From positions 1,432,501 through 1,496,500 of the forward strand of contig NZ_CP154468.1 in assembly GCF_039545455.1 (NCBI RefSeq): a DNA stretch of 64,000 nucleotides, in the 5' to 3' direction. How positions within the stretch are numbered: position 1 is the stretch's first letter; each line of letters starts with the position of its first letter. The position numbers and the translations under genes were made by a program. Source of the stretch: Brucella sp. BE17. GTDB lineage: Bacteria; Pseudomonadota; Alphaproteobacteria; Rhizobiales; Rhizobiaceae. This document shows, in pieces, positions 15,461 to 40,776 of the stretch. The notes under the pieces were generated by a model. It saw only the letters and a list, made by a program, of their open reading frames with translations. It was not told the origin of the DNA and did no database searches.

Positions 15461-16705
15461 CTATATTTGGATGCCCTGTCCCTCTGGTTTTAAAGGTACC
15501 GGTTTTCCCAGCAGAAAACCTTGTAGCTCATCACAATCCGTCTCTTGCATGAGAGACAATTGACGCTGTGTTTCAATTCCTTCTGCTGTAACCTGAATAT
15601 CAAGCGCATGTGCGAGGCCGATGATCCCGCGCACAATTTTGATTGACTTCTCATCCTCATCGATATTGACGATGAATTGCCGGTCGATTTTGAGTTTGTC
15701 GATCATAAAGCGACGCAGATAAGCGATACTGCAGTAACCTGAGCCAAAATCATCAAGGACGATCCGGAAGCCACGCTTACGAAGATCTCGCACCGTAAGC
15801 GCACTTTGTTCGTCATCCATCATAATGTGTTCGGTCAGTTCGAGTTCAAACTGTTCAGGACTGCAACCAAATGATCTCACACTCGCCTCTGCCTGTTCTG
15901 CGAACGATGCAACCCGACATTGCTGCGGGGAGACGTTCACCGCCACGAATTCTCCAGGACGATGACGGGCAACACGGGCTGCGGCTTCAAGGACGTGCTG
16001 TCCCAGCTGATTGATCAGGCCTGTTGCCTCGGCCTGTGGCAGGAACTCTGCCGGACTCAACCAGCCATCTGTCGGATGGCGCCATCGCACAAGCGCCTCA
16101 TGACCGACAAGGGTAAGATCGCGGCGAGAGAACAATGGTTGGTAATGCACAACAATCTGATCTTTGCTTTCCAGAGCTGTTGCCAGATCGTCTGCAATTG
16201 TCTGCTGGCGTTTTAATTCCTTATCGAGTGATGCTTTGAATGTATTGAAATTGGAGCCGCCAGAAACCTTTTGAAATTGCAAGGCGACATCAGCACGACG
16301 CACCAGCTCCTTAACCGGAAGCGGCTTTGCATCCTGATAAGATACACCAATGCTCAACTTTATCAGCACTTCCCGGCTTTTTAACAGGAAGGGCTCATGA
16401 ACTGTCGCCAGAAGCCGTTTGCACAGCTTTATGACTGAATTTTTAGAAGTCGTGCCATTAACGAAAATCACAAATCCGTCTCGACCGGTTCGTGCCAAAA
16501 TATCATGGCTGCGGATTTCATGCTTGAGACGGCGAACCAGTTGAAGAAAAAGCATGTCGACATCGTCTGTACCAAGCGAGAGACTCAACCGGCGAAAACG
16601 ATCAATATCAATGGACAATATTGCGCACGAAGAGGACATTTTCGCAGCAAGAGGCTCAACCCTCTTTAAAAACACAACAAAATCATGAAGCGCATACTCG
16701 GACAC
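15461..16705 (-). CDS. Degenerate-GGDEF plus EAL protein (predicted cyclic-di-GMP phosphodiesterase)
   Basis: A 414-residue soluble protein. The N-terminal GGDEF domain is degenerate: the signature is GRDGF (74-78), so it should not make c-di-GMP. The C-terminal EAL domain looks complete: HYQPLFS, EAL at 203-205 in HEALVRWRH, NVSPQQ, ELTEHIM, DDFGSGY at 318-324, KIDRQF, AEGIET and LQGFLLGKP. Hydrolysis of c-di-GMP to pGpG is predicted. GTG 16705 has AAGGAA upstream. It follows the PAS-GGDEF gene in the same direction by 110 bases and lies beside a glycan synthase with c-di-GMP-binding-type domains. Confidence 0.9.
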   Translation of the reverse strand: MSEYALHDFVVFLKRVEPLAAKMSSSCAILSIDIDRFRRLSLSLGTDDVDMLFLQLVRRLKHEIRSHDILARTGRDGFVIFVNGTTSKNSVIKLCKRLLATVHEPFLLKSREVLIKLSIGVSYQDAKPLPVKELVRRADVALQFQKVSGGSNFNTFKASLDKELKRQQTIADDLATALESKDQIVVHYQPLFSRRDLTLVGHEALVRWRHPTDGWLSPAEFLPQAEATGLINQLGQHVLEAAARVARHRPGEFVAVNVSPQQCRVASFAEQAEASVRSFGCSPEQFELELTEHIMMDDEQSALTVRDLRKRGFRIVLDDFGSGYCSIAYLRRFMIDKLKIDRQFIVNIDEDEKSIKIVRGIIGLAHALDIQVTAEGIETQRQLSLMQETDCDELQGFLLGKPVPLKPEGQGIQI

Positions 16706-16815: not shown

Positions 16816-17760
16816 TCAGGCTGCCTCAGGCTTAACAAACCATTCCCATCCACCCTTGTTGAGCGCTTTTCTACGATATAGCGCCTGGTCAGCACACCGC
16901 AAGAGAGTTTTTAAATCTGTTCCGTCCTGTGGCAGAAGGCTGGCACCTATACTGGCACCTATGCTGACAGAATTGGTGCCGAGATTTATCGGCAAGGACA
17001 GGGCGGCGGCGATGCGCGAGCAGACCTGTTCCGCTGTCTCTGGCGTGCGGATATCTGGTAGAAGAACCGCGAATTCGTCTCCGCCCATCCGGCAAACCAG
17101 ATCACCGGCGCGCACACTGTCGCGCAACCGGGTCGCAACCGTTATGAGTGTTTGATCTCCCGCCTCATGTCCCCAACGATCATTGACAGCTTTAAAGCCA
17201 TCAAGATCGATCAGCAGAATTCCGGTCATTGTCCCTTGCGCAGCTTCCGATTGGGCCAGCTGATCCCAGCGCTCCTGTAACATGCGGCGATTGGCAAGTT
17301 TTGTCATTATGTCTTCAAATGCCGATTGCCGTAAAGCCTGCTCGGCAATCCTGCGATCAGAAACATCGTTAAAGATAGCGATACCAAGCCCCATTTCATG
17401 AAGAAGAACACCACAGTGCTCAACGGTCTTTATTGCACCGTTGCGGCACAAAACTTCAATTTCAAAGGGGGCAATTTCTGAAATGCCGTGCTCGTGCATT
17501 TGCCAGAGATCCTGCCAGTAGGTTCTGGCTCTTTCTCGGTCGCGTTCACGCCGGTAGGTCTTGTCAATCCAGTCATCAACAGTCTCAAAACTTTTTTCTT
17601 CATAGCCGAATGTTGTGGTGAAGGCACGGTTCGTGAAGCTGATCTTTCCATCGGACAAGGAGGCCCAAGAAAGGGGAACCGGCAATGCATCAAGAATTAT
17701 ATGGAACTGCTGTGCGGTGAAGCCCGTCGCTCTTGCAGCCCGTTCTAGAAATTCCTTCAT
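16816..17760 (-). CDS. PAS-GGDEF diguanylate cyclase
   Basis: A 314-residue protein with an N-terminal PAS sensor (about residues 18-135, including DALPVPLSWASLSDGKISF and IAIFNDVSDRRIAEQAL) and a C-terminal GGDEF domain with an intact GGDEF motif at 226-230. An RxxD product-inhibition site (RAGD, 217-220) sits exactly five residues before the motif. No membrane segment or signal peptide is seen, so it should be cytoplasmic. ATG 17760 has GGTGGAG upstream. It lies 99 bases after the glycan operon in the same orientation, and its c-di-GMP is the obvious candidate input for the neighbouring NfrB-like synthase. Confidence 0.9.
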   Translation of the reverse strand: MKEFLERAARATGFTAQQFHIILDALPVPLSWASLSDGKISFTNRAFTTTFGYEEKSFETVDDWIDKTYRRERDRERARTYWQDLWQMHEHGISEIAPFEIEVLCRNGAIKTVEHCGVLLHEMGLGIAIFNDVSDRRIAEQALRQSAFEDIMTKLANRRMLQERWDQLAQSEAAQGTMTGILLIDLDGFKAVNDRWGHEAGDQTLITVATRLRDSVRAGDLVCRMGGDEFAVLLPDIRTPETAEQVCSRIAAALSLPINLGTNSVSIGASIGASLLPQDGTDLKTLLRCADQALYRRKALNKGGWEWFVKPEAA

Positions 17761-17859: not shown

Positions 17860-18807
17860 TTATTTAAGTAAATTGTGTTTAATTAGTTCATCAATAAGCT
17901 CTGACTTAATATAGTGAGGACCATCAAAAATAAAGATATTGTATCCCCTCATGACTTTGATCTGGGGTAGCAGCTCATCGGCCGTGGCCGGGCGAAATCC
18001 CCTAATTCCAATCGGTCGGAATGCTTCGACAATAATCCTTACCCTTTGTTTTCCTAATCGCTTTACCAGCGCATCAGCATAGTCCCGCGCAACAGCGGGA
18101 GAGCGGACTTCCACGCCCACGCCGTCCTGAAAGAAAATTCCAACATCTGGCGGCAGCCAGCTAGCCACCCAATCTGCAAACTCCTTTGCGCCAATATTGT
18201 GGCCTTCATAGACACTGATCCATAACGGGCGTGGCAATTGTGCGAGCGCCTTTGGCATCAGTTGCGGCGCATCGTGCCATGATGAATCCACTTCGACAGG
18301 AAAATAGTAACCCGTAATATTAACAGGTAGCTTTTTGCGCGCTAATCTGGCCGACTGCTCGGCCAGTTCGAGAACATTTGCGCGCGCTTCCGGCTCCGAA
18401 AAACGTCCGGCAAGGCCAAGAATTACATTTTTCGCCCAGGGCTGTTGAGAGATGTCAAACCAATCGATGGGGGACTTCGGGTCGCCTCCTCCGCCGAGAA
18501 AAGAAATATTGTCCACTTGCGACCATTGTACCAGGAGCGTGTCGGCTCCAAGCTTGTCCCAATCGCCTTTGATTGCAGCCGTCGCATTATCAACCTGCCA
18601 GACAATTCCCTTGACCGGCATTTCATCCGCCCTCCAAAGCGGCGTGAGCGAACCGTTCCAGATACAATAAGAAACTATCGCTGCAACGGCTAGAACCACA
18701 GCCGGAACAAGGGTAACAATAGCCCATAGAATCCTTCGTTGCCGGGGTATCAATAGGAGCACTCCCATCAAAGCTTTTGTCGACGGAGCATCTCCTCTGT
18801 CAGGCAC
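17860..18807 (-). CDS. Membrane-anchored putative glycoside-hydrolase-like protein (DUF4434-like)
   Basis: A 315-residue protein with one N-terminal membrane segment (about residues 25-47, ending AIVSYCIWNG) and a large extracytoplasmic domain. The domain pattern recalls TIM-barrel DUF4434 proteins: VKGIVWQVDNA, KLGADTLLVQWSQVDN, ITGYYFPVEVDSSWHD and VGIFFQDGVGVE, with acidic residues at predicted strand ends. A role in trimming or binding the glycan made next door is inferred. It may be the counterpart of the third gene (ybcH) of the E. coli nfr operon, which I cannot confirm. GTG 18807 is the start; it is 16 bases after the glycosyltransferase gene. Confidence 0.6.
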   Translation of the reverse strand: MPDRGDAPSTKALMGVLLLIPRQRRILWAIVTLVPAVVLAVAAIVSYCIWNGSLTPLWRADEMPVKGIVWQVDNATAAIKGDWDKLGADTLLVQWSQVDNISFLGGGGDPKSPIDWFDISQQPWAKNVILGLAGRFSEPEARANVLELAEQSARLARKKLPVNITGYYFPVEVDSSWHDAPQLMPKALAQLPRPLWISVYEGHNIGAKEFADWVASWLPPDVGIFFQDGVGVEVRSPAVARDYADALVKRLGKQRVRIIVEAFRPIGIRGFRPATADELLPQIKVMRGYNIFIFDGPHYIKSELIDELIKHNLLK

Positions 18808-18823
18808 GCCCCATACAGTTGTT

Positions 18824-20938
18824 TCAGCTTGGCATCATGCCTTTTGACAGGCGCGACTGGACAGTCAGCGCCTGATCGAGTGCGTTCTGGCTGATAACGT
18901 TGCGTGCCACCAGATAGGCTCCCACCAGACCGTCCCGACTCGGAGAATAATCATGCATAGCTGCTTCAAGCGCACTTTGCGTGAGGATGCCTTCATCAAC
19001 CAGCATTGCGCCAAGCAGTGGCACGCCTGCATCGATCTTGTCTGAACCATTTCCACGCAGGATACGCAGCCCCGCGTTGATGTCACGATCACGCACGATG
19101 AACTGCTGCGGCTTATAGCCCAGAACGGCCGTGACCTGGCTCACCCCTTCAGGAGACAGAGGCACCGATACCACAAGGCCTACCTTACCCGCTTCATCGG
19201 GTGCAAGAGCAAGAGTGCGCAAGCGGATGCTCAGATCGGCGGGAAGAAACGCTTTGCCCGCCAGAATCTCGGCCTCGCTGACGGAGGTCATTTCCAGACC
19301 GGCTTGAAAAGCCACGGCTTCCGCCAGAACTTCTTCTGCAAGCCAGCCTTCCTGAACAAGAATGCGGCCAAGTGGAGTATTCTTGTTTTTTTGCTTGTCG
19401 AGCGCAGAGTTGAGCTGATTTTCATCGATTGCCTGCCACGACATCAACAGATCGCCAAGCCTTTCTCCGGTCCCGACGAGCCCCTCGGAGGTCGGGAAAT
19501 CGTGCATGGTCTTGTCCCAGACCAGCGGTCTTCCTGTGATTCTGTGGACAATATATTGCTTCCAGGCGCGCGACATTGCCATGAAATTCACCATGTTGCC
19601 GACCATCATGCGGGGAACGGACAAAAGTCCATGTTCCCAGCCAAACATACGACCGGTGAAATAGACCCGCTGCACAAGGCGAAGAATCAAAGCTATCGCA
19701 TTGAGACCAAGGACAACACCCACCCAGCCCTGCAACGCAAGCAATGGCGGATACTGGATGCTGAGCAGTCCGGTCACGAAGGCGACCTGGAAGATGATAT
19801 ATTGTACCGCGAGAAAATAGGCGAGGATTGCGATGAAGGCAGTGACCATGCCCTTGCGATCGCGCATAAGAAAATAACGGTCCACCATTGATCCGCGCCA
19901 GCCAAAATAAGCCCAGCCCTGAAAGCATATGCCGAGCGACCAGCGAGCCTTCTGGCGGTAAGAAGTGCGGAATGTATTTGGGAAATATTCGCGCACGCTC
20001 AAAGGCATGCTCAAGGTCTTTTCCCGGGTGCGGCCATAACCAAACCAGCTTTTGCGCATGACACGATACTCGACGGGGAAACGCGCCAGAATTGAATGCA
20101 TGCCGTGTGCGGAAAGGCGTACGCCGATATCGTAATCTTCGGTCAGTGTCTGTGTATTGAACGGCTGATTGTCCGTTTCGGAAGCCAACGTCAACAGCGC
20201 ACGGCGAGAGAAACAGGTACCAACACCGGCAGATGTAACGGTTTTTGCGAGGCTTTCGCGCACGACAAGGTCTTTCGCGTGCCACTCAGCAAACTCATCC
20301 ATATAGACCCCAGCCACCAGTTCATACCAGTTGCGTTCCAGTGAGCCAACGGGGATCTGGATCAGGTCCTTGCGGGGAAGCAGGTAATTGTAGAATTGCA
20401 GTTCAAGCGGATGCAGAACGTCCTCGCTGTCGTGCAGAACCACACCGGCGAATTCGATACCATGCTTCTGCTCATGCGCAAAAATTGCCTGCACGACCCA
20501 GTTCAGGCAATCTGCCTTGCAGGTCGGGCCATCATGCGGCACTTCCACGCGCACCAGCTGCCTGTAGCGGCGGCGCATCCTTTCGACTTCCTTGATCGTT
20601 GCGGCATCATTGCGATAGGTGCCAGCAAAGATCGTATAGGAGCGGTAATCGAGCGTCTGCACCATGTTTTCCAGCATGGGCGCGATGACGTCATATTCCA
20701 GCCATGCCGGAACCATGATCGCAATATGCTGTTCGGGGCGATTGCGCAATTGTTCAGGCCGCAGCGGCTGATAGCGCCGCTTGATGGTGAACGTGCGATA
20801 AATCTCTCTTACCCAGTACCAGACATCGATGAAAAGATCATCGATGCTGGAAATAAGGATAATAATAGAGACCGTAATCGCCGCATATTCCAGCCACTGA
20901 TAATAATCAGCAAAAAGGTACGGCCAATAGAGAGACAT
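18824..20938 (-). CDS. NfrB-like processive glycosyltransferase with MshEN-type c-di-GMP-binding regions
   Basis: A 704-residue inner-membrane GT2 synthase. Membrane helix at about 16-40; GT2 domain 70-335 with donor-site HDSED (169-173), TED (266-268) and QxxRW (329-333); further helices at 363-425. The C-terminal part carries MshEN-like 24-residue motifs: GERLGDLLMSWQAIDENQLN (first motif, usual Gly replaced by Gln) and TPLGRILVQEGWL, then a second weaker pair near 640-694 (LLGAMLVDEGILTQSALEAA and GAYLVARNVISQNALDQAL). E. coli NfrB makes a c-di-GMP-dependent N-acetylmannosamine-based glycan used by phage N4. Here c-di-GMP activation is inferred. It follows the BcsB-like gene by 14 bases. 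Confidence 0.85.
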   Translation of the reverse strand: MSLYWPYLFADYYQWLEYAAITVSIIILISSIDDLFIDVWYWVREIYRTFTIKRRYQPLRPEQLRNRPEQHIAIMVPAWLEYDVIAPMLENMVQTLDYRSYTIFAGTYRNDAATIKEVERMRRRYRQLVRVEVPHDGPTCKADCLNWVVQAIFAHEQKHGIEFAGVVLHDSEDVLHPLELQFYNYLLPRKDLIQIPVGSLERNWYELVAGVYMDEFAEWHAKDLVVRESLAKTVTSAGVGTCFSRRALLTLASETDNQPFNTQTLTEDYDIGVRLSAHGMHSILARFPVEYRVMRKSWFGYGRTREKTLSMPLSVREYFPNTFRTSYRQKARWSLGICFQGWAYFGWRGSMVDRYFLMRDRKGMVTAFIAILAYFLAVQYIIFQVAFVTGLLSIQYPPLLALQGWVGVVLGLNAIALILRLVQRVYFTGRMFGWEHGLLSVPRMMVGNMVNFMAMSRAWKQYIVHRITGRPLVWDKTMHDFPTSEGLVGTGERLGDLLMSWQAIDENQLNSALDKQKNKNTPLGRILVQEGWLAEEVLAEAVAFQAGLEMTSVSEAEILAGKAFLPADLSIRLRTLALAPDEAGKVGLVVSVPLSPEGVSQVTAVLGYKPQQFIVRDRDINAGLRILRGNGSDKIDAGVPLLGAMLVDEGILTQSALEAAMHDYSPSRDGLVGAYLVARNVISQNALDQALTVQSRLSKGMMPS

Positions 20939-20952
20939 TTATCCTATGCCTT

Positions 20953-23238
20953 TCAGTCGTTCTTCGCACGTTTACGCGCAAGATGCGCCAGAACAAAGAC
21001 AAGAAGAAACGCTACGATCAGACCTGATGTAAGAAGCCAGGTTAGATTGTTAAGCCAGTTGGATGGATTAAGCAGCTTTTCCATAGTCAAGGTGCCGCCA
21101 CGCCCGTCACCAGAAGCACCGGCGCTTAGATATGTTGGTGTCCCAGCGCTATTGACGGAAGCAATCGCACCTTGATCACCTACGACCGCAATATCACCAC
21201 GCGGCAAGACGAAAGCTTTATTAAACTTTGGCCCAGTACCAACAGAGTTATAGGAAATGCCCGGCTCTGATCCTTTGGTAACGGCCTGAAGGACGCCGAC
21301 ATCGCTTAGTCCCGCAACATCATAGAAAACATTGCCCTTGCGATCTGCAATGGAAAGCCGATCCCCGCTGACCTTGACTGAATCCACGCCGCCCGCAACG
21401 GGAAGATCGAAGGCTAAAAAAGGCTTTTCAGGCGTGACCGTTGCCGAATTGGCAACGAATTTAAACTCGGCCATCGCGGGAGAAATACCCGATGCAGCAG
21501 CAACATCGATCAAAACCGGCAGGCTTTCGGTTGCTGTTTTGCCCCAGTTTTCGTCCGCGAGAACAACGGATTCGCCCGCAAGATGCGATATGAGCGTGCC
21601 GAAGTCTTCCGCCGTGCCAGCTTCCCGTAGTCGCATAGTGCTGTCTGGCAGAACTGCTACCGGATAGGCCTGCGGAATCTCACTGCATGAGCCGCTGGAT
21701 GGCTGGCGTTGGAACTGCACGCGCACGGTATTGCGTGGCAGCAGCGCATATGCGGGCACATCAACCGAAATCAGTTCCGGGCGGCCATCGGCATCCAACT
21801 GCCGTGCGCCGAGCAGATAATCATTGAGGAACACCGAGGCGACCGGCAAAGTCTGCGTTGCACCCGGTGCCGCGGAGACTTTGATATCCAGACCAGATGG
21901 AACTTTTCCAGCAACAAGGCCATCGCCAAGATCGAAAGTCGTTGTCCAGTCGCCACGCGCCACGACGTCGATCGTGCTGCTCGCCTGATTGAGTGCGCCC
22001 AGCGATACGCTATCGGCATTATTCTCTGGCTTTGAAACGGTGTTCAGTATGAGACGGCTTGCTTGAGTGGAACGGCGCCAGAGGCTGTCAAAAATGCTTG
22101 CGGCATTGGTTGCCGCATCCGGTGCAACGGCAATAACGGGTCGTCCTGCGAAGCTTCTTACGGTCAAGCTTTTGGGTTCGACTGGGGCGAGAAGCGAATT
22201 GGTGTTTTCAGAAAACGCATCCAGTACTGTTTGCGTTTCCGGGTCTGCCGTCGTCAGTTCCTGCCCCAGTGCTGCGATGGCCCCTTTGAGTGGCGTTGTC
22301 AGGGCTTCATCGGCAATGGCGATGTTGGCCTTTTTGCCACCTGAATTCAGCAGAAGCCATGCACCGGCCTGTGCTTCGTTTGCAAGCGTCACTTTACCGC
22401 CCCGCGAAAGAACTGCGACGGACGGGACGGAACTCAACTCGGTCGGGATTTGTAAGCCGGCAGTATTCACCGTGTCACCGACTTTCGGTGCGGCAACGAC
22501 CTCCACTTCCTTACCCGCACGCACCAGTGCGACACCGATCCGCCACGCGGCATCGTAGCTTTGTGTACCCGGCGCGTCCGAAGACACCAACAGGACGACC
22601 TTGCGCGGCAACGCAGACCAGACATCGGCCACAGTCTTAATCTGGGAAGGGTCGTAGCTGTATTCCAGATAGCTGTCCGGCGAGATTTTCAACACATTGC
22701 CGATTGCCCTATCGTCCTGACAAAGCTGTTCCCCGATCGCCGACGACCAGTTGATGCCCATGCGCACGAAGCCGCTGGGTCGCGGCGAACCATCAACGCC
22801 GATTGCGATGTTTGTCTTGCCTGCATCTTCCGTCAGGCCGCGCGCAGCCACGACATTGCCATCCAACGCCAGCGTATAGGTGGTGCGGCCCCCGTCGGCT
22901 CTGATATAGTCGCCATTGACCGCAATCGCCGGGTTTTCAAGCGCGATATTGGCCGGTACAGGCAAATAGATTTCGCGGCTTGCACTACTTGAAGCCAGAG
23001 AGAGCGCCTCATCAATGCCAAGGTCTTTGAGGCTGACTTTTTCAGTCACTCTGGTGGGCGAGACCAGCGACTGGAAAGCATTGCTGATTTCTCCTGCATT
23101 TGCGGCACCGCCAAGCGAAGTGATGAGCAGGCTTCCTGCAATTGAACCCATTATGGTGGAATTGAGCAGACGATGTTTGTTGAATACAGACTGAACCATG
23201 ATTGCCCGTGCCTTTTCGAGAAAACCTAAATAAATCAT
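20953..23238 (-). CDS. BcsB-like periplasmic glycan synthase subunit
   Basis: A 761-residue protein with an N-terminal signal or anchor (about 30-49, SIAGSLLITSLGGAANAGEI), a long periplasmic beta-rich region and one C-terminal membrane helix (about 733-755, LTWLLTSGLIVAFLLVFVL). This is the architecture of cellulose synthase subunit B, which guides the nascent polymer through the periplasm. Recognisable BcsB-type stretches include VSLKDLGIDEALSL, VDVPAYALLPRNTVRVQFQR and CSEIPQAYPVAVLPDSTM. Its ATG overlaps the wecB stop (ATGA, 23235-23238), implying translational coupling. A later ATG at 23199 would give a more usual signal peptide. E. coli nfr lacks such a gene as far as I know. Confidence 0.8.
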   Translation of the reverse strand: MIYLGFLEKARAIMVQSVFNKHRLLNSTIMGSIAGSLLITSLGGAANAGEISNAFQSLVSPTRVTEKVSLKDLGIDEALSLASSSASREIYLPVPANIALENPAIAVNGDYIRADGGRTTYTLALDGNVVAARGLTEDAGKTNIAIGVDGSPRPSGFVRMGINWSSAIGEQLCQDDRAIGNVLKISPDSYLEYSYDPSQIKTVADVWSALPRKVVLLVSSDAPGTQSYDAAWRIGVALVRAGKEVEVVAAPKVGDTVNTAGLQIPTELSSVPSVAVLSRGGKVTLANEAQAGAWLLLNSGGKKANIAIADEALTTPLKGAIAALGQELTTADPETQTVLDAFSENTNSLLAPVEPKSLTVRSFAGRPVIAVAPDAATNAASIFDSLWRRSTQASRLILNTVSKPENNADSVSLGALNQASSTIDVVARGDWTTTFDLGDGLVAGKVPSGLDIKVSAAPGATQTLPVASVFLNDYLLGARQLDADGRPELISVDVPAYALLPRNTVRVQFQRQPSSGSCSEIPQAYPVAVLPDSTMRLREAGTAEDFGTLISHLAGESVVLADENWGKTATESLPVLIDVAAASGISPAMAEFKFVANSATVTPEKPFLAFDLPVAGGVDSVKVSGDRLSIADRKGNVFYDVAGLSDVGVLQAVTKGSEPGISYNSVGTGPKFNKAFVLPRGDIAVVGDQGAIASVNSAGTPTYLSAGASGDGRGGTLTMEKLLNPSNWLNNLTWLLTSGLIVAFLLVFVLAHLARKRAKND

Positions 23239-24368
23239 GCCTGAAATGCCGGGAGAGGCATTTCCAGTAAGGATGCTGCAATGCGTTGGGAAGCAAGGCC
23301 GTCGCCATAAGGATTAACGGCGCGTGCGAAAGTGTCATAGTGGCCGGCGTCTTCGAGGAGACGCATAACCTCACCGACAATGCGGTCAGCATCAGTTCCC
23401 ACGAGGCGCACTACGCCTGCGGTCACGGCTTCCGGTCTTTCAGTGACATCCCGCATGACGAGAACCGGCTTGCCGAGCGACGGCGCTTCTTCCTGCACAC
23501 CGCCGGAATCGGTCAGGATAATGTCGGCCCGTTCCATGAGATAGACAAATGCAAGATATTCCTGCGGTGCGATAAGATGAACGTTATCGCGTTCGCTCAG
23601 CAGTTCATGCACCGTACCGCTGACATTAGGGTTTAGATGCACAGGGTAGACGATCTGCAGATCTTCCCGGCGCGACAGCTCCGCCAAAGCCTTGCAGATA
23701 TTGCGGAAACCATCACCAAAACTTTCGCGGCGGTGGCCTGTCACCAGTAACAGGCGCCGCGATCGATCAATGAAGGAAAACGTCTTCTCAAGATTTGCCT
23801 TGATGACCGCATCATTCTGGATACGGGAAACCGTTTCCTTGAGGGCATCAATCACAGTATTGCCTGTTACCAGAATCTCACCGGCTAGCTTTTCTTCACG
23901 CAAATTGCTGGCGCTGGTGTCAGTGGGCGCAAAAAGCTTTGCCGAGACAATGTCGATCAGGCGGCGGTTCATCTCTTCAGGCCAGGGCTTGTTCAAATCA
24001 TAGGTACGCAATCCCGCCTCGACATGGCCGACACGGATATTGCGGTGTTGAGCGGCAAGAGATGCGGCCATGGCTGAACTGGTGTCGCCATGTACGAGTA
24101 CATAGTCCGGTCTGGTTGTGACCAGAACTTCATCCAGCCGCGAAATAACCCGACTTGTCAGCATATTAAGCGTTTGATTTGGCGCCATGACTTCGAGATC
24201 ATAATCCGGCTTGATGTCAAACAGCGTCAAAACCTGATCGAGCATGGTACGGTGTTGACCGGTCACGCAGGTTATGGCTTCAATCCCGTCTTGTGCCGCA
24301 AGTGCTTTGACAACCGGTGCCATCTTGATCGCTTCGGGACGCGTCCCGAATACCGACATTACTCGCAT
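23235..24368 (-). CDS. wecB: UDP-N-acetylglucosamine 2-epimerase (non-hydrolysing)
   Basis: Interconverts UDP-GlcNAc and UDP-ManNAc in the cytoplasm. The 377 residues fit the bacterial non-hydrolysing family. Key motifs are MSVFGTRPEAIKMAPVV at the N-terminus, HGDTSSAMAASLAA and VGHVEAGLRTYD with the catalytic acidic residues, TGHRRESFGDGF with the conserved His, and DSGGVQEEAPSLGKPVLVMR binding the nucleotide. ATG 24368 follows GGTGGAGAT; the longer frame to 24470 overlaps the upstream gene and is not needed. Its place between a TPR gene and the glycan synthase genes suggests dedicated ManNAc supply for the polymer. Confidence 0.93.
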   Translation of the reverse strand: MRVMSVFGTRPEAIKMAPVVKALAAQDGIEAITCVTGQHRTMLDQVLTLFDIKPDYDLEVMAPNQTLNMLTSRVISRLDEVLVTTRPDYVLVHGDTSSAMAASLAAQHRNIRVGHVEAGLRTYDLNKPWPEEMNRRLIDIVSAKLFAPTDTSASNLREEKLAGEILVTGNTVIDALKETVSRIQNDAVIKANLEKTFSFIDRSRRLLLVTGHRRESFGDGFRNICKALAELSRREDLQIVYPVHLNPNVSGTVHELLSERDNVHLIAPQEYLAFVYLMERADIILTDSGGVQEEAPSLGKPVLVMRDVTERPEAVTAGVVRLVGTDADRIVGEVMRLLEDAGHYDTFARAVNPYGDGLASQRIAASLLEMPLPAFQA

Positions 24369-24412
24369 TATCTCCACCCTGTTTAGTGTCTTCCCGTTTT
24401 CCGCAACGGAGA

Positions 24413-25135
24413 TTATCCATATCTTTCGGGCTGAGACGGTTTTCTTGTAATGCCGTTTTCGCATCGGCACGCCCTTGCCTGACTGACGTCTCCCAGCTTA
24501 AGCCGCGATGCACTACGAAACATCAAGGCAACCGGATCACCGGAATTCGTTTCCAGAACTTCGGTCGACATTATCTCTGCCTCTGCGAAATCGTTCTCTT
24601 GAAGTTGCGCATGGATCAGCAGGTATCGATACGATTTTACATCCGCGGCCAGTCGCACAGCTTCTTCAGCGCGTTTTTTAGCGCTCGCGAAGTTGTTACG
24701 CTCAAGGGCGCGATAGACCTGATCGGCGCTGTGCCCTGCAGATTCCGCATCGGACACAACAGGCTTTTCAAGCTGGTTCGGCGCATTTTTTTGTAGTCGT
24801 GCCAGTTCAGACGCTGCAGTCGTTGCCTCTTCAGACCGTCCTGCGCGCTGCAATGCGTCGACCAGCAATGTATGCACCCGCAGCACTTCGGGCCTTTGGC
24901 GAATGGCTTCACGTACTTTTATGATGGCTGTGCAGTAATCGGCGCGGTTGAAGCCGGCATAGGCCTCATTGGCGACCTTATAAGCAGGACTGCTCAATGG
25001 AACATCGATGGTGGTTTTACTTTGCGCCGATGCCGTATTGCCAGAATATCCTGCACTATAAAGAACCGCCAAGAAACAGAGCTTCTTTACAAGTCGCAGA
25101 AAAGCGCATGAAGCCAGATAAAACTTACGACGCAT
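24413..25135 (-). CDS. Exported TPR-repeat protein, possibly truncated NfrA-like component
   Basis: A 240-residue protein with a hydrophobic N-terminus (MRRKFYLASCAFLRLVKK, then a segment ending TASAQS) that looks like a signal peptide. It is followed by helical TPR-like repeats: YKVANEAYAGFNRADYCTAI, EVLRVHTLLVDALQRAGRSE and KSYRYLLIHAQLQENDFAEA. In Nfr and Pga systems TPR proteins form the periplasmic face of the outer-membrane exporter. Here no beta-barrel or C-terminal domain follows. The last 25 residues (ARACRCENGITRKPSQPERYG) look unstructured, suggesting 3' truncation. It is the promoter-proximal gene of the operon; ATG 25135 is chosen over one 45 bases upstream. Confidence 0.65.
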   Translation of the reverse strand: MRRKFYLASCAFLRLVKKLCFLAVLYSAGYSGNTASAQSKTTIDVPLSSPAYKVANEAYAGFNRADYCTAIIKVREAIRQRPEVLRVHTLLVDALQRAGRSEEATTAASELARLQKNAPNQLEKPVVSDAESAGHSADQVYRALERNNFASAKKRAEEAVRLAADVKSYRYLLIHAQLQENDFAEAEIMSTEVLETNSGDPVALMFRSASRLKLGDVSQARACRCENGITRKPSQPERYG

Positions 25136-25225
25136 GCTTCTGTTTTCCGCTATTTTAGATGTTGGCAACGTCAAAACCACAACAAATATCGCTAAATTAT
25201 CATCAACTTATGGTTGTGCATTGAT

Positions 25226-26475: not shown

Positions 26476-27047
26476 TTTTGCCTCTGTTTCCCGCAGTGCC
26501 GTTGCTTCAGCGCGCCTATTGTAAAAATACAGGGATTGCATGGGGATTTCGCAGCAAGCCAAATTTGAGCGCGACGTTAAGCTGATCCGCGCCACTTTGC
26601 TTCCATTCGACAGGTAAGTATCCATCAATCTCTTCACATAAGATCAATTGGCAGCCGCTCAGCAGGTATCCCGGCTCGTGGGATGAGCGACGTGCTCAAA
26701 CCGGCGGTTATCACCCAGCAATCCGCCCTTGCGGGCAGTGAGCGTTGCCTCTCACCGCGACGTAACTTTCGCCGTATTGAAGAAGTGCGGGAGGTCAACA
26801 AAACGCATGACACTTATCACAGTGTCGCATCAGGTGCGAAGTTATGCGTCATAAAGACGATTTTCGCGCAATTGTCCGACCGAGCTATGTCGCACTAACG
26901 TTCGGCTAGCGCGCTTAATACCGAAAAATAATGTGACGGTGCGGCAAGGGAACGACACATCGAGAGATCATGCATTTTAGTGTCCGTCAGTCGGCAAGTC
27001 CGTCAGGCGAACGCTCTTAACGCTCGGTGTACGAATTGGAGTTTGAA
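26476..27047. other. Divergent intergenic region with an inverted repeat
   Basis: No convincing gene. A perfect 6-base inverted repeat (GACACT-N6-AGTGTC, 26809-26826) and a direct repeat GTCCGTCAG (26982-26990 and 26999-27007, 17-base period) lie in the expected regulatory zone between the leftward dehydrogenase and the rightward transporter genes. Both are candidates for regulator binding. No regulator gene is nearby. Confidence 0.35.
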
Positions 27048-27914
27048 ATGACTCGTTCTAAGACTATCACAGGCGGGATACTGGCTGGGCCAGCGATTAT
27101 GTATATGACGCTGTTCTTTGCAGCACCCGCTGTTATTCTATTCATTTATAGCTTCTGGATTTCAGTTTTCTATAAGACAGTTCCAGATTTTGTATTTACG
27201 AACTACATCGCTTCAATCACCTCGCCTGTCTTTCTCAAGTTGACATGGAATGCGATCTTCATCGGGGTGGTGACGGCCTCAATCACATTGGCCGTATCGA
27301 TCCCATTCGGATATTATCTCGTCTACGTCTCCAAATCGCAGATGATCCTCTACCTCGTGCTCATAACCTGGTTTTCCAGCTATCTGGTTCGGATCTACGC
27401 TTGGCGAACACTTCTCGGCACAAATGGCGTGATTAACACGGTTCTCATGAAAATCGGGGTAATCAGCGCGCCAATTGATGCCTTCCTGTTCAATTCTTTC
27501 GCTGTGATATTGACCCTCACGCACATTTATCTGCCATTCTGCATTCTTCTGGTTGTCGCTTCGTTTAGCGAAATCAAATCCGAATTGCTTGATGCTTCCC
27601 GAGATTTAGGGACATCAAACCTTGGAGCTTTTTTTCAGGTCATCGCTCCAAATGCCTCCAACGGTCTACTCGGCGCGTTCATGTTGACCTTCATTCTGGT
27701 CGCAGGCGACTTCGTGACCCCGCAAATGCTTGGAGGATCGTCAGGACAAACGACCGGGCTGCTCATTGCAGATCAATTCCGCAAAACAGGGAATTGGCCG
27801 CTCGGCGCAGCTCAGGCAGTGATTATGTTCATCATTTCTCTGCTCATCTACCAGGTTCTCCTCTTTACAGGTCGTTTTTTAGGTCTGATCCCCAAGCGCG
27901 GCTTCCGCAAGTAA
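27048..27914 (+). CDS. Polyamine/opine-type ABC transporter permease (PotB-like)
   Basis: A 288-residue inner-membrane protein with six predicted helices beginning GGILAGPAIMYMTLFFAAPA. The PotB-type pattern includes TWFSSYLVRIYAWRTLLGTNG and the EAA loop ELLDASRDLGTSNLGAFFQV. ATG 27048 follows TTGGAG; an ATG seven codons upstream lacks a site. It is the first gene of a rightward set: two permeases, ATPase, binding protein, then an oxidoreductase. Confidence 0.9.
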   Translation: MTRSKTITGGILAGPAIMYMTLFFAAPAVILFIYSFWISVFYKTVPDFVFTNYIASITSPVFLKLTWNAIFIGVVTASITLAVSIPFGYYLVYVSKSQMILYLVLITWFSSYLVRIYAWRTLLGTNGVINTVLMKIGVISAPIDAFLFNSFAVILTLTHIYLPFCILLVVASFSEIKSELLDASRDLGTSNLGAFFQVIAPNASNGLLGAFMLTFILVAGDFVTPQMLGGSSGQTTGLLIADQFRKTGNWPLGAAQAVIMFIISLLIYQVLLFTGRFLGLIPKRGFRK

Positions 27915-27933
27915 GTCACGGAGATACGCTATT

Positions 27934-28731
27934 ATGTTGCGATTTATTGTTTGGCTAACGATGGCTTTTTTACTGGCGCCTCTGGTGATCATCGTGCTGT
28001 TCAGCTTCCATGCCTCGCCGTCGCTCAGCTTTCCATTTACCGGCTTCAGCCTGAGATGGTATGGGGAAATCTTTGGCAACGATCAGCTTCGCAGCGCTGT
28101 TCTGAAGAGCCTGTTCATCGCATTCCTCACGGCGGTGGTGACCCTCTTTCTTGGTGCTGCAGCCTCGCTTGCCTGGGTGCGTCTAGGCAAAGTTGGACGC
28201 GGCATTATTGAGGCTCTCTGCATCACGCCTATCGCGTTGCCGGGTCTCTTCGTTGGCGTAGCGCTCCTTACTCTGTTCGCACAGGCCGGTATTCAGCTCT
28301 CGACGGTTACGATCGTTATCTCTCATGTCGTATTAGCCATCCCGATCATGATCGTTGCCATGCGTGCACGGCTCACCCTGTTCGATCCCTCGTTGGAGGA
28401 GGCCGCACGCGACCTTGGAGCATCACAGCTGCAGACCTTCCGGCGTGTGACGCTGCCATTGATAGCCCCCACGCTGATCTCCTCCTCTATCCTCGCGTTC
28501 GCTGTGTCGTTCGACGAGTTCGTTGTCACATCCTTTTTAGCTGGAACTGAGACAACGCTCCCAATGTATGTATGGTCAATGATGCGCCGCACGGTCACGC
28601 CACTCATCAATGCGGTATCTACGCTGGCTCTCGGCTTCTCAATCATAATTCTACTTGGTGCCTGGCTGATTCAAAAGGCTCGCAAATCATCGGCACTTTC
28701 AGGAAGACTGCTCTCAGAGGATCCCCAATGA
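27934..28731 (+). CDS. Polyamine/opine-type ABC transporter permease (PotC-like)
   Basis: A 265-residue partner permease with six hydrophobic segments. PotC-like features are VIIVLFSFHASPSLSFPFTG near the N-terminus, ALCITPIALPGLFVGVALL and the EAA loop LEEAARDLGASQLQTFRRVT. Its stop overlaps the start of the ATPase gene (ATGA at 28728-28731), implying coupled translation. Confidence 0.91.
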   Translation: MLRFIVWLTMAFLLAPLVIIVLFSFHASPSLSFPFTGFSLRWYGEIFGNDQLRSAVLKSLFIAFLTAVVTLFLGAAASLAWVRLGKVGRGIIEALCITPIALPGLFVGVALLTLFAQAGIQLSTVTIVISHVVLAIPIMIVAMRARLTLFDPSLEEAARDLGASQLQTFRRVTLPLIAPTLISSSILAFAVSFDEFVVTSFLAGTETTLPMYVWSMMRRTVTPLINAVSTLALGFSIIILLGAWLIQKARKSSALSGRLLSEDPQ

Positions 28732-29828
28732 ACGCCTCAATTCAAACCACGGCCCCGATTATCGAGATCACAAACGGGCAAAAATCCTTTGGTGCTGTAA
28801 AAGCGCTGTCTGATATCAACCTTTCAATCAAAGACGGTGAAATTCTAACACTGCTCGGCCCCTCAGGCTGCGGCAAGACAACGCTCATGCGAATGATCGC
28901 GGGCTTCGACAACCTCACGGAGGGCGGTCTGAAGATCGATGGACGCGATGCGGTCCGCACTGCGCCGGAGCATCGACCGGTCAACATGGTGTTTCAGAGA
29001 TACGCTCTGTTCCCGCACCTGGACGTATTTGACAATGTTGCGTTTGGTTTGAGGGTAAAAGGCGTTGAAAAGGCAGAGATCAAGGAGCGCGTCACGCGCA
29101 TGCTCCACATCGTGCAGCTCGATAACTTTGCCAATCGCTATATTCACGAGCTTTCCGGAGGCCAATGCCAACGCGTTGCTTTAGCTAGAGCGCTTGTGAA
29201 CCGCCCCAGAGTACTGTTACTCGACGAACCACTTGCCGCACTCGACCTAAAGATCCGCCAACACATGCTTATCGAGATGAAGCGTATCCACATGGAGACG
29301 GGCGCAACTTTCATCTACGTCACGCACGACCAGGATGAAGCGTTGATCCTTTCTGATCGCGTTGCGCTCATGGATCGCGGCCGGATTGTCCAGGTTGACC
29401 GTCCGGAAGTGATGTATTCGGGTCCGAAATCACTGTTCGCTGCCAAATTCCTTGGCGAGACGAACATCTTCGAGTGCGTTGTTGCCGATGCTTTGGCTAA
29501 TCGTGTGAAAGTCCGGTCTGGTTTTGGCTCCGTTTTTGAGAGCCCTGAAACGGTCGAATGCCAACCAGGGCAGAAGATGTTTGTTTCTATCCGGCCGGAG
29601 CTTCTTAGCTTTGAGCCTAGCCCGGCGGGATCCTCCCAGTCTGCAGATGTGAAGATCGAAGACGTCACATTCATTGGAAGCCGCTCGTTCTACACCGTGG
29701 GTCTTCCAGATAACACGCGAGCACGCCTCCAGGTACAAAGAAACGGACGGTCCAAACTTCCGGCTGTCGGTGAGTCCGCTCAGATGTTCTGGGAACCTGA
29801 AAGCCTAGTTTTTTTGCCAGCTACGTAA
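28728..29828 (+). CDS. Polyamine/opine-type ABC transporter ATP-binding protein (PotA-like)
   Basis: A 366-residue ATPase. Walker A is GPSGCGKTT, the Q-loop VFQRYALFPHLDVF, the signature LSGGQCQR (Cys in place of the usual Gln/Arg), Walker B VLLLDEPLAALDLK and the switch His in VTHDQDEA. A C-terminal TOBE domain of about 120 residues follows, as in PotA. ATG 28728 is set by the ATGA overlap; the open frame before it lies inside the permease gene. Confidence 0.93.
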   Translation: MNASIQTTAPIIEITNGQKSFGAVKALSDINLSIKDGEILTLLGPSGCGKTTLMRMIAGFDNLTEGGLKIDGRDAVRTAPEHRPVNMVFQRYALFPHLDVFDNVAFGLRVKGVEKAEIKERVTRMLHIVQLDNFANRYIHELSGGQCQRVALARALVNRPRVLLLDEPLAALDLKIRQHMLIEMKRIHMETGATFIYVTHDQDEALILSDRVALMDRGRIVQVDRPEVMYSGPKSLFAAKFLGETNIFECVVADALANRVKVRSGFGSVFESPETVECQPGQKMFVSIRPELLSFEPSPAGSSQSADVKIEDVTFIGSRSFYTVGLPDNTRARLQVQRNGRSKLPAVGESAQMFWEPESLVFLPAT

Positions 29829-29931
29829 GCAAATAGCCGCGCAACCAATACATACAAAATAAGTGTTGGCCGCATCAATGATCGCACTCTCCAGAGAGAA
29901 GCCGATAAATAACTCAAGAAGGGAACGTGAA

Positions 29932-31077
29932 ATGAAGAAAATTTGGTCGACCGATGATATCCTCAATTCGGTTACTCTTAACCGCCGATCGTTTCTGACG
30001 GGCTCGACGGTCCTTGCAGCGGGCGCCCTGTCGGGCCCGTTTCTGCCGGGTGTAGCTCAAGCTGCAGCGAGCGGCGAGTTGCAAATCATGGCTTGGGAAG
30101 GATGGGAACCAATACCGGAACTGAAGGGCTGGATTGACGAAACCGGTGTGAAGATCACAGTCACAGCAATCGGCAACCAGGATGATGTTACCGCCAAGTT
30201 CAATACGGCTTCGCCTCCTCCGTTCGATGCGGCTGAATATAACCACGGATATGCTGATCTTTACATCGATGTTTTGAAAATCACGAAGCCGTTGGACAAG
30301 TCCAAGCTCCCCAATTACAGCCCTGATAACCTTTTTGACGTTTTTTATGACAAACCAACATGGTTCCGCGATGGACAGTTGCACGGCGTAGCTTATGCCT
30401 GGGGCCTCAATACGCTTGTCTATAATCCGAAAATGATGGAAAAGCCGACATCCTATACTGACCTTCTCAAGCCGGAATTGAAGGGCAAGATCGTCATCGC
30501 TGACGATACTCTCGCCACCTGGCCGTTGGCTGCCGTGCTCGCGGGATACAAGTCCTTCCCGAACCTGACAAAGGACGAGATGGCAAAGACCTTCGAAAAT
30601 CTGAGGCTTTACCGGGCCCAGGCTCGTACGATCAGTCTGACCTATGGCGACGTTGTATCCTTGATGGTGTCAGGTGAAGTCGCCGCCTGTTTGACTGGAT
30701 GGACCGGTATCCCAAAGGAAACGGAGAAGCAAGGTTTGGAAACCGCGTATACCATTCCGAAGGAGGGTGCGACGACTTGGAGTGACGCATGGTTTATGCC
30801 GCCGGCAGTTGACAATGAGGAGGCCGCACACGAGTTTATCAACTTGGCTATTTCGCCCGAAGTTCAGGCGAAAGTCGCAGGCCGGAACATGGGCGGCGTG
30901 GTCTCGAAAAAGGCTGTCGAGTTGCTCGATCCTGAGACGAAAGCCCTGTTCGACTACTCGGACATCGACGGCATATTCAAGGCCGCTCCGCTCATCGGTA
31001 TACCGCCGCTGGAGTCTGACGAGTATGCGACATACGCAGACTGGGTCGCAGCGTGGAATGAATTTAAGGCGGGCTGA
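29932..31077 (+). CDS. Spermidine/putrescine-type periplasmic binding protein (PotD-like), Tat signal
   Basis: A 381-residue binding protein. The N-terminus has a twin-arginine motif (NRRSFLTGSTVLAAGALSG) and a cleavage-like PGVAQAAAS, so export by Tat is predicted. The mature part starts LQIMAWEGWEPIPELKGWID and includes the PotD-like GVAYAWGLNTLVYNPKMM. ATG 29932 follows AAGGGAACG. The substrate could be a polyamine, an opine or a quaternary amine; the oxidoreductase next door does not settle it. Confidence 0.88.
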   Translation: MKKIWSTDDILNSVTLNRRSFLTGSTVLAAGALSGPFLPGVAQAAASGELQIMAWEGWEPIPELKGWIDETGVKITVTAIGNQDDVTAKFNTASPPPFDAAEYNHGYADLYIDVLKITKPLDKSKLPNYSPDNLFDVFYDKPTWFRDGQLHGVAYAWGLNTLVYNPKMMEKPTSYTDLLKPELKGKIVIADDTLATWPLAAVLAGYKSFPNLTKDEMAKTFENLRLYRAQARTISLTYGDVVSLMVSGEVAACLTGWTGIPKETEKQGLETAYTIPKEGATTWSDAWFMPPAVDNEEAAHEFINLAISPEVQAKVAGRNMGGVVSKKAVELLDPETKALFDYSDIDGIFKAAPLIGIPPLESDEYATYADWVAAWNEFKAG

Positions 31078-34935: not shown

Positions 34936-36546
34936 GTGAAAGAGATGCGAGCAGATATTCTTGTCGTGGGTGGCGGTGTTGGTGGGGTCGCGGCAGCGCT
35001 TGGCGCTGCGCGGGCCGGCAAACGCGTGATCATGACGGAGGAATACGACTGGATCGGTGGCCAGCTTACGAGCCAGGCCGTGCCATCCGATGAGCATACA
35101 TGGGTCGAGCAGTTCGGCATTACCCGGTCCTATCGAAAGTTGCGCCAGAGTGTGCGCCAGTATTACCGCGACCACTATCCGCTAACCGAAGGTGCCCGCG
35201 CCTGGGACGACCTCAATCCCGGTGCTGGCTGGGTCAGCCGCATTTGTGCCGAGCCGCGCGTCAGCCTCGCCGTCATGGAAAGCATGCTTGCACCCTATAA
35301 AGGCGCCGACCGGTTGACGGTACTGAAACCCTATCGGCCGGTCGCCGCAGACATTGACGGAGACGTTGTCCGTTCCGTTACCGTGCGCCACCGTGACAGC
35401 GGTGCCGAGATCGTGATTACCGCCGAATACATTCTCGATGCCACCGAACTTGGCGATCTGTTGCCGATGACCGGCACCGAATATGCCAAGGGTTTCGAGG
35501 CTCAATCCGATACCGGCGAGCCCAGCGCCCCGTCAGAGGCGCAGCCGGACAATGTCCAGGCCGTGTCGATCTGCTTTGCAATCGACCACGTGGATGGCGA
35601 CCAGACGATCGACAAGCCTCAAAACTATGACTACTGGAAACAATACCAGCCGCATTTCTGGGGTGGTCCGATGCTGGGCTTTACCGCGCCGCACCCGCGC
35701 ACACTGGAGCACACGACCCGGTCCTTTACCCCCAACCCCGACGATGATCCACTTCTCGTCGATGCCGACCAGCGCAAGGGTGGTGGTGACGAGAACCTCT
35801 GGATTTTCCGGCGCATCGCCGCCCGCAAGAACTTCAACCCCGGCTTCTACCAGTCAGACATCTGCCTCGTGAACTGGCCTATGATCGACTACCTGGACGG
35901 CACCATCATCGATGTGTCCGAGGAGGAAAAGGCGAGGCACTTGAAGTCCGCAGCCGATTTATCCTATTCGGTTTTCTACTGGCTGCAGACGGAAGCACCG
36001 CGCCTCGATGGTGGCCAGGGCTATCGGGGCCTGCGCCTGCGTGGCGACATTACCGGCACCGAGCATGGGCTCGCCATGGCGCCCTATATACGCGAAAGCA
36101 GGCGCATCAAGCCGGTCACCCGCATCGTCGAACAGGATCTGTCCTATACAGTTCGGGGCGAGAAGGGCGCAGTTCATTACCGTGACAGCATCGGCATAGG
36201 CATGTACCGCATCGACCTGCACCCATCGACTGGTGGCGACAACTATGTAGACGTGCCGTCGTGCCCGTTCGAAATTCCGCTTGGCGCACTCCTGCCTCAA
36301 CGGATGAAGAACCTCATCCCGGCCGGCAAGAACATCGGCACGACCCATATCACCAATGGCTGCTACCGCCTGCATCCGGTCGAATGGAATATCGGCGAAG
36401 TTGCAGGAATGCTGGCCGCCTTCAGTCTCGAAAAACGCCTGACGCCGCATCAGGTGCAGGCCGACGACAAGCACCTTCACGACTTTCAGGCAGCTCTGAC
36501 CCGCGAGGGCATTGAAATACGCTGGCCCGAGATCGGGGCCTATTAA
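34936..36546 (+). CDS. FAD-dependent oxidoreductase (FAD_oxidored family)
   Basis: A 536-residue flavoprotein with the dinucleotide-binding start ADILVVGGGVGGVAAALGAA and a glutamate after the second strand (TEEYDWIGGQ). The C-terminal FAD contact region includes NLIPAGKNIGTTHITNGCYR. This family accompanies sugar transport operons in many Rhizobiales, but the reaction is not established. GTG 34936 or ATG 34945 can be the start. It lies between the LacI gene and the sugar binding-protein gene, which follows after 123 bases. Confidence 0.83.
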   Translation: MKEMRADILVVGGGVGGVAAALGAARAGKRVIMTEEYDWIGGQLTSQAVPSDEHTWVEQFGITRSYRKLRQSVRQYYRDHYPLTEGARAWDDLNPGAGWVSRICAEPRVSLAVMESMLAPYKGADRLTVLKPYRPVAADIDGDVVRSVTVRHRDSGAEIVITAEYILDATELGDLLPMTGTEYAKGFEAQSDTGEPSAPSEAQPDNVQAVSICFAIDHVDGDQTIDKPQNYDYWKQYQPHFWGGPMLGFTAPHPRTLEHTTRSFTPNPDDDPLLVDADQRKGGGDENLWIFRRIAARKNFNPGFYQSDICLVNWPMIDYLDGTIIDVSEEEKARHLKSAADLSYSVFYWLQTEAPRLDGGQGYRGLRLRGDITGTEHGLAMAPYIRESRRIKPVTRIVEQDLSYTVRGEKGAVHYRDSIGIGMYRIDLHPSTGGDNYVDVPSCPFEIPLGALLPQRMKNLIPAGKNIGTTHITNGCYRLHPVEWNIGEVAGMLAAFSLEKRLTPHQVQADDKHLHDFQAALTREGIEIRWPEIGAY

Positions 36547-36669
36547 TGAGGCTAAACTGAAATTCGTATCACTTCCGAGGAAGGCTTGGATAGAGTTTCA
36601 GCTTCAAAGCCACAACATTAGGACGAGATACCATTTGAGATCGAACCCATCTTTGGAGGAGGACTGGGA

Positions 36670-37932: not shown

Positions 37933-37942
37933 GGAGATCGTC

Positions 37943-38875
37943 ATGGCTGTCGCGCACCATCATCAATCGTCGAGGACTGGCGCACCATCGTCATACTGGA
38001 CAATCGCGCGGCGCGACAGCCTCGCTGGCTTCTTGTTCATTGCGCCGCAACTGATCGGCATCATCACCTTCGTTCTGGTGCCGCTCGGCCTGGTGTTCTG
38101 GTATTCGCTGCATGAGTGGAACGTGCTGGCCAACACCTTTACCTTCACCGGCAGCCAAAACTACAAGATGGTGATCGAGGATACCAATCTGCTCGAGGTA
38201 CTCGGCGCCACGGCGATCTTTTCGGCGGGCCTCGTCGTGCTCAACATGTCGTTGGCGCTGCTGCTCGCCGTCCTGCTCAACCAGAAGCTCGCGGGCATTG
38301 CCTTCTTCCGAACGCTGTTCTTTTCCCCGGTCGTGGTTTCGCTCGTCGCCTGGACGATCGTCTGGGGGTTTCTCCTGCAGAAGAACGGCGGCATCAACGG
38401 CATGCTGCTGATGCTCGGCGTCGAGGGCCCTAACTGGCTGCGCGAGGACGTGACCGCGATGATCTCGGTCATCGTCGTTCAGGTATTCAAGAATGTCGGC
38501 CTCAACATGATCCTGTTTCTTGCCGCCCTGCAGGGTGTGCCGAAGGAACTCTATGAGGCTGCCCGCATCGATGGTGCTCCGGCCTTCAAGCAGTTCCGCC
38601 GGATCACCCTGCCGCTGATCAGCCCGACCATCCTGCTGACCTCGATCATTACCATTGTCGGTTCGCTGCAGGTGTTTGCGCAGATCGCAGTGCTCACCCA
38701 GGGCGGGCCGGGTCTCTCTACCACAGTGCTTGTTTATTACCTCTACCAGCAGGCCTTCCAGTTCCATTATTTCGGTTACGGCTCGACACTGTCCATCCTG
38801 CTCTTTGTGATCGTCGCCTTTCTGACCTTCGCCCAGTGGCAGATGCGCAAGAGGATCGTGTTCTATGAAAACTGA
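37943..38875 (+). CDS. CUT1-type sugar ABC transporter permease (MalF/UgpA-like)
   Basis: A 310-residue permease with six hydrophobic segments, starting with a hydrophilic His/Ser-rich tail. The family EAA loop is YEAARIDGAPAFKQFRRITL. It starts 10 bases after the binding-protein gene and overlaps the next permease by 11 bases, so translation is coupled. An opposite-strand frame over the same bases is a shadow. Confidence 0.93.
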   Translation: MAVAHHHQSSRTGAPSSYWTIARRDSLAGFLFIAPQLIGIITFVLVPLGLVFWYSLHEWNVLANTFTFTGSQNYKMVIEDTNLLEVLGATAIFSAGLVVLNMSLALLLAVLLNQKLAGIAFFRTLFFSPVVVSLVAWTIVWGFLLQKNGGINGMLLMLGVEGPNWLREDVTAMISVIVVQVFKNVGLNMILFLAALQGVPKELYEAARIDGAPAFKQFRRITLPLISPTILLTSIITIVGSLQVFAQIAVLTQGGPGLSTTVLVYYLYQQAFQFHYFGYGSTLSILLFVIVAFLTFAQWQMRKRIVFYEN

Positions 38876-39707: not shown

Positions 39708-39723
39708 ACAACGGGATCCTATT

Positions 39724-40776
<1,053 letters not shown>

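Follow-up and report, generated by a model that had tools for sequence, protein, structure and literature searches.

What is made, and how is it exported, by an operon that sets an NfrB-like synthase beside a BcsB-like periplasmic subunit? Such a locus lies on the minus strand of the window analysed here, a 64,000-nucleotide stretch of Brucella sp. BE17 (C2:1432501-1496500 of a two-contig, 3.89-Mb genome; operon genes are given in window coordinates). We read it as the inner-membrane synthase half of a BcsB-coupled glycan system of the Nfr type, related to NGR of Escherichia coli and PGR of Acinetobacter baumannii, with export through an unlinked NfrA1, and we give this reading a probability of roughly 0.8. 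The operon itself is genuine; wecB and bcsB overlap by 4 bases, the gaps between bcsB and nfrB and between nfrB and the DUF4434 gene are 14 and 16 bases, and a likely cyclase gene follows 99 bp downstream of the DUF4434 gene. The minus-strand reading order starts with a 255-aa TPR open reading frame (ORF) and continues as follows (GT2, glycosyltransferase family 2; c-di-GMP, cyclic di-GMP):

24413..25180, minus strand: apparent relic of a second nfrA (nfrA2), comprising the TPR front part, frame-disrupted near the 3' end, without the outer-membrane barrel
23235..24368 (called as 23235-24470), minus strand: wecB, non-hydrolysing UDP-N-acetylglucosamine 2-epimerase for supply of UDP-N-acetylmannosamine (UDP-ManNAc), TIGR00236
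20953..23238, minus strand: bcsB-like periplasmic subunit with a C-terminal membrane anchor and a predicted BcsB fold
18824..20938, minus strand: nfrB-like GT2 synthase with a C-terminal MshEN-type c-di-GMP motif (NF012033, NF053729)
17860..18807, minus strand: ybcH-like DUF4434 protein with an N-terminal membrane anchor and a glycosidase-type TIM barrel (hhalign, TIM-barrel model)
16816..17760, minus strand: PAS-GGDEF protein, likely local diguanylate cyclase (PF00990, 157 bits; GGDEF motif and RxxD I-site intact)
15461..16705, minus strand: protein with degenerate GGDEF and EAL domains, likely phosphodiesterase and possible operon member (PF00563, 214 bits; usual EAL motifs)

The last two genes may belong to the operon, to judge from their position; the GGDEF motif of the EAL protein has degenerated to GRDGF. 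Promoter and terminator scans of the locus gave results close to shuffled expectation.

The likely product is suggested by the synthase and by the gene that would supply its donor. The NfrB-like glycosyltransferase matches NF012033 at 1055 bits (cut-off 537), reaches 622 bits with the E. coli-type model NF008411, under that model's cut-off of 1170, and is 41% identical to NfrB of E. coli MG1655. Its D170, D268 and W333 align with E. coli D169, D267 and W330, such that the D, TED and QxxRW residues of a processive GT2 enzyme are present, and L494, G495 and G524 align with L490, G491 and G519 of the MshEN module. The residues compared are those judged critical and mutated in PMC8669469 and PMC8669472; in the latter, G491L abolished N4 killing completely and G519S did so partially. 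The MshE-type c-di-GMP motif NF053729 is matched at 90.5 bits (cut-off 38), and Pfam PF05157 (MshEN) at 13.4 bits only, under its cut-off. An MshEN module therefore appears to be present by alignment and motif match, and control by c-di-GMP is plausible by homology. The adjoining wecB matches TIGR00236 at 469 bits (cut-off 210), with a probable start at 24368 supported by a start codon and a ribosome-binding site; a second WecB, 55% identical to that of the operon, is encoded on contig C1.

For the protein encoded at 20953-23238, structural comparison of the prediction settled the fold as that of BcsB; the first-pass annotation had named the absence of such a fold as grounds for dropping its reading. 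No second PF03170 match was found in the genome. Other comparisons were less informative: hhalign of the window BcsB profile against a single E. coli BcsB gave 2%, NCBIfam returned no match for the window BcsB, and when solved structures were searched by sequence, neither the BcsB protein or its profile nor the DUF4434 profile gave a match within the limits set. For the DUF4434 protein, hhalign gives 96.5% against E. coli YbcH, and its structure model is a TIM barrel with the PgaB C-terminal domain among the structural matches; the term DUF4434 was not found in the open-licence PubMed Central (PMC) literature searched. The parts list and its families are thus established at the level of sequence matches and structure models, and the proposal of an Nfr-family N-acetylmannosamine-glycan synthase with a BcsB-fold subunit was supported by profile matches, key residues and structural comparison.

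The route of export turns on the 255-aa TPR frame. About 240 of its residues match the front of nfrA in a genome of the same genus, G013 (L130; 45% over 253 aa), and a collinear match in a second frame then takes up the homology (46% of 26 aa, window ~24406-24483, E 5e-4), which stops just ahead of wecB. The frame-shifted piece is weak by itself (that search also matched an unrelated piece to a transposase, at E 0.001); the relic reading is made because the piece is collinear with the first alignment and because the barrel is missing. By these alignments the frame is a broken second nfrA, truncated at its 3' end, frame-disrupted and without its barrel. A working TPR gene in the operon was rejected as the first choice on two grounds, the shift of its homology into a second frame and the lack of a barrel. 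Of the five-gene leftward operon proposed in the first-pass annotation, WecB, the BcsB-fold protein, the NfrB-type GT2/MshEN synthase and the anchored TIM barrel stand, and the working exported TPR protein gives way to an nfrA relic.

A complete nfrA1 lies ~35 kb from the operon (C2:1413352-1415736, plus strand), as a 795-codon open frame carrying TPR repeats and a PF13283 NfrA_C barrel (195.8 bits; L036 13353-15737). After it come genes for AlgF (63.9 bits), an MBOAT protein (112.2 bits) and two proteins of the ALGX type, one at 182.5 bits and a last one, running off the end of the stretch examined, at 203.9 bits. Transposase genes border this nfrA1-alg block (C2:1409545-1424498, outside the window), with DDE_3 and rve integrase-type transposases on the left by family search and IS21-, IS5- and IS3-like genes on the right by eye. 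On contig C81 of G013, wecB and bcsB are preceded by an ORF with a barrel, 67% identical to that of nfrA1; the front part on C102 and this barrel part, both cut by contig ends, would represent one gene. Another G013 contig carries an nfrA1-algF-algI block with an 88% identical barrel, its algI cut by the contig end. A single run is found on a contig of a Paenochrobactrum metagenome-assembled genome (L039), in the order nfrA (cut by the contig start)-algF-algI-algJ-algX-wecB-bcsB-nfrB-DUF4434. Given this single run, we weighed a recent inversion of one ancestral operon but did not retain it as the only cause: in G013, nfrA1-algF-algI and a second nfrA are already found in different surroundings.

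Whether synthase and pore belong together was judged from their co-occurrence. Within the genus, 3 of 35 genomes have nfrB, and the nfrA barrel is found in exactly these three; all five genomes with nfrB in an order sample of 397 also have nfrA. Pseudochelatococcus contaminans (L057) has no nfrA by its operon within the fetched stretch, but a 929-aa nfrA frame on another contig; in G663, nfrB is on C10 and nfrA on C26, a split for which the draft assembly could also account. Orphan nfrB genes were seen in Phyllobacterium leguminum (L050 9965-12178) and Brucella endophytica (L052 9944-12157), with no other nfr gene in the fetched stretches. A full cluster lies elsewhere in the P. leguminum genome (L137), and the B. 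endophytica genome has no nfrA at E 0.001.

From these parts we propose the following course of synthesis, largely by analogy with the studied systems. WecB would form UDP-ManNAc, which the NfrB-type synthase would polymerise across the inner membrane once c-di-GMP binds its MshEN module; the neighbouring PAS-GGDEF cyclase would probably supply the c-di-GMP, with the EAL protein acting against it. To judge from its fold, the BcsB-like protein, which is anchored next to the synthase, may take and guide the chain in the periplasm, and the DUF4434 TIM barrel may bind or trim it, as the PgaB C-terminal domain does for poly-N-acetylglucosamine (PNAG). The AlgF-, MBOAT- and AlgX-like proteins would O-acetylate the polymer, which would exit through NfrA1 and not through the 255-aa TPR product. 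On the model of E. coli and A. baumannii, this surface glycan would serve in attachment or biofilm and could be exploited by phages; a role in phage reception here is plausible by homology.

How widely this gene set is kept was surveyed with an alignment of four bcsB-linked NfrBs, and the 80 named loci (the best 80 of at least 594 matched stretches, 509 of them confirmed) therefore overstate the linkage to bcsB. Spanning alpha-, beta- and gammaproteobacteria, they contain bcsB in 78 cases, nfrA in 74, wecB in 72 and DUF4434 in 71, and all five genes, with nfrB, in 65; the family models behind these counts had the loci's own ORFs as their training set, and in several of the cases scored as absent a contig end cuts the stretch. 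The commonest order among the scanned genes, wecB-bcsB-nfrB-nfrA-DUF4434, is exact in 38/80. Conservation of the wecB-bcsB-nfrB order far outside the genus, which the first-pass annotation had named as support for a system, was thus found, in a query-biased sample. AlgF-like and AlgX-like genes occur in 27 loci each and AlgI-like genes in 14. Six beta-proteobacterial loci (L067, L070, L076, L084, L087 and L054) have AlgF-AlgX-AlgJ-AlgI-like genes between nfrA and DUF4434, which suggests an O-acetylated form of the glycan there. An even sample of the class yielded NfrB at E 1e-100 in 8/288 other genomes, with wecB at seven of these eight loci, an nfrA-like barrel nearby at all eight and DUF4434 at one, two of the eight stretches being cut by contig ends. 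In the order sample, nfrB is present in 4/396 other genomes and bcsB lies beside it in three of the four, judged on ~5 kb stretches only.

Two damaged relatives were also seen: an NfrB match interrupted by seven in-frame stops, with wecB and an nfrA-like barrel as neighbours (G109:C158:18017-19954; L011, L020), and a wecB, bcsB and nfrA region lying in several separate open pieces (L044 6552-15600), by frame breaks or poor sequence.

A midpoint-rooted tree of 40 chosen NfrB rows, which carries a long-branch warning (L020, L017, L023 and L024 are long), places 32 rows in one clade with support 99/95, namely all 30 bcsB-linked sequences and the orphans of P. leguminum and B. endophytica. The window NfrB falls within this clade, whereas E. 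coli NfrB lies outside it, together with seven class-sample NfrBs that have no bcsB.

Comparison with known systems shows what is shared and what is local. The operon resembles E. coli NGR (nfrBA-ybcH with wecB) in the key glycosyltransferase and MshEN residues, the NfrA-type pore, the YbcH-type protein and WecB supply, but E. coli nfr has no adjacent bcsB and depends on the wecB of the enterobacterial common antigen cluster (PMC8669472, PMC8669469). For nfrBA-ybcH, PMC8669469, the companion paper of PMC8669472, reports that NfrB binds c-di-GMP, that wecB or cyclase genes lie near nfrB in other species, and that the nfr cluster of Simplicispira suum has alginate-like acetyltransferase genes. 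In Achromobacter xylosoxidans, PMC8669472 (2021) describes nfrA, nfrB and wecB clustered with BcsB and O-acetyltransferase homologues; the parts list, O-acetylation genes included, is the same as here, where it is divided into two blocks ~35 kb apart. The PGR locus of A. baumannii (PMC12507263, 2025) combines, by the paper's description, the BcsB homologue PgrD (so assigned by its mutant analysis), the NfrB homologue PgrC and the WecB PgrF in one locus with the PgaB-C-like PgrE, the putative porin PgrG and the GGDEF-like PgrA. There, pgrD was required for adsorption of StAb3, a mutant of the wecB homologue pgrF was resistant, and both were complemented; unlike the cyclase here, PgrA lacks the GGDEF motif, and the pore gene, unlinked here, is part of the locus. 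The first-pass annotation had considered the combination of Nfr and BcsB undescribed; because PMC8669472 and PMC12507263 already describe it, that claim of novelty falls. Among the titles and abstracts found in the open-licence PMC literature, we recognised no other account of an Nfr locus coupled to bcsB. Clusters in Phyllobacterium, Martelella, Microvirga, Paraburkholderia, Pseudomonas and other genera share the same inner-membrane genes and order, but most have nfrA between nfrB and DUF4434, whereas here nfrA is elsewhere and a relic lies upstream of wecB. As in BcsA-BcsB, a GT2 synthase adjoins a membrane-anchored BcsB-fold protein; unlike cellulose synthase, the system has MshEN instead of PilZ, UDP-ManNAc donor supply and an NfrA_C pore family.

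Several observations weigh against our reading. The pore gene of the operon is broken, such that an NfrA pore within the operon is not found, and nfrA1 is unlinked and on the opposite strand. In the window NfrB, V occupies the position of E. coli L537, and the DUF4434 protein scores 35.3 bits (E 7.8e-9) with NF007404 and 22.2 bits with PF14488, both under the curated cut-offs, its structural match to PgaB being tied with many glycosidases. Likeness to PGR was judged from the paper's description of the locus. Among relatives, bcsB lies beside nfrB in only one of the eight class-sample loci, GGDEF genes of the window's kind occur in only 10/80 loci within the fetched stretch, and a weak nfrA-like barrel (30-31% identity) unaccompanied by nfrB was seen in two of the 397 genomes of the order sample. 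Our chief reservation concerns whether a system split in this way still works in this genome. With nfrA1 unlinked and the operon pore gene broken, the system could be decaying, in the sense that the nfrA2 barrel was lost, the pore and O-acetylation block separated and glycan export ended. This would fit the truncated and frame-disrupted nfrA2, the transposase genes to the left (by family search) and right (by eye) of the nfrA1 block, and the presence of the system in only three of the genus genomes. However, the nfrB, bcsB, DUF4434, nfrA1 and algF frames are open, with ratios of non-synonymous to synonymous change (pN/pS) of 0.11 to 0.32 against G013 (bcsB and DUF4434 compared in part), and a split with a long open nfrA recurs in P. 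contaminans and in the draft assembly G663. The relic's own pN/pS of 0.49 only modestly exceeds the ~0.39 of the first 290 aa of nfrA1, and was rejected as too weak to prove its decay. We therefore regard loss of the whole system as unlikely.

The short TPR product might instead function in the periplasm as a scaffold in place of the TPR part of the pore, another outer-membrane protein serving for export; cellulose operons without BcsC provide a precedent, and the 255-aa frame is still open with a hydrophobic, signal-like N-terminal stretch. This seems improbable given that nfrA2 homology continues in another frame beyond the disruption, that the G013 ORF upstream of wecB has a barrel, and that this genome also has a complete nfrA. 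Finally, the BcsB fold and the PgaB-like TIM barrel could belong to a variant cellulose or PNAG synthase, were it not that the glycosyltransferase matches NfrB models at the 1055 and 622 bits given above but PgaC TIGR03937 at 18.4 bits (cut-off 422), that family searches returned no PilZ or BcsA match, that wecB adjoins, and that the sole PF03170 match found in the genome is the operon gene; we consider this highly improbable. Synthesis by the BcsB-coupled Nfr system with export through NfrA1 accordingly remains our preferred reading.

The locus represents a kind of system already known, and its local peculiarities are the division into two blocks and the decay of a second pore gene. It places the family of the E. 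coli and A. baumannii phage-receptor pathway in a Rhizobiales genome, in a BcsB-linked form that is one clade by sequence and a frequent arrangement among query-biased relatives. The pore is separable from the synthase on the chromosome, and operon-only surveys can therefore miss or misread it. More broadly, we see about even odds that the BcsB-coupled Nfr synthases form an old class of their own, c-di-GMP-gated N-acetylmannosamine-glycan machines of alpha-, beta- and gammaproteobacteria in which a BcsB-fold subunit is joined to an MshEN-gated synthase and the synthase and NfrA/O-acetylation blocks are modules able to live apart, and that this lineage once had two pore genes, one of which is being lost.

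The surroundings of the operon, mostly read by eye, consist of transport and oxidoreductase genes (window 27027-31077 and 34936-40776), none of them apparently linked to glycan synthesis on that reading. Further along, window 54340-55737 encodes a transposase with a Mu transposase C-terminal domain, IS21-like by eye.

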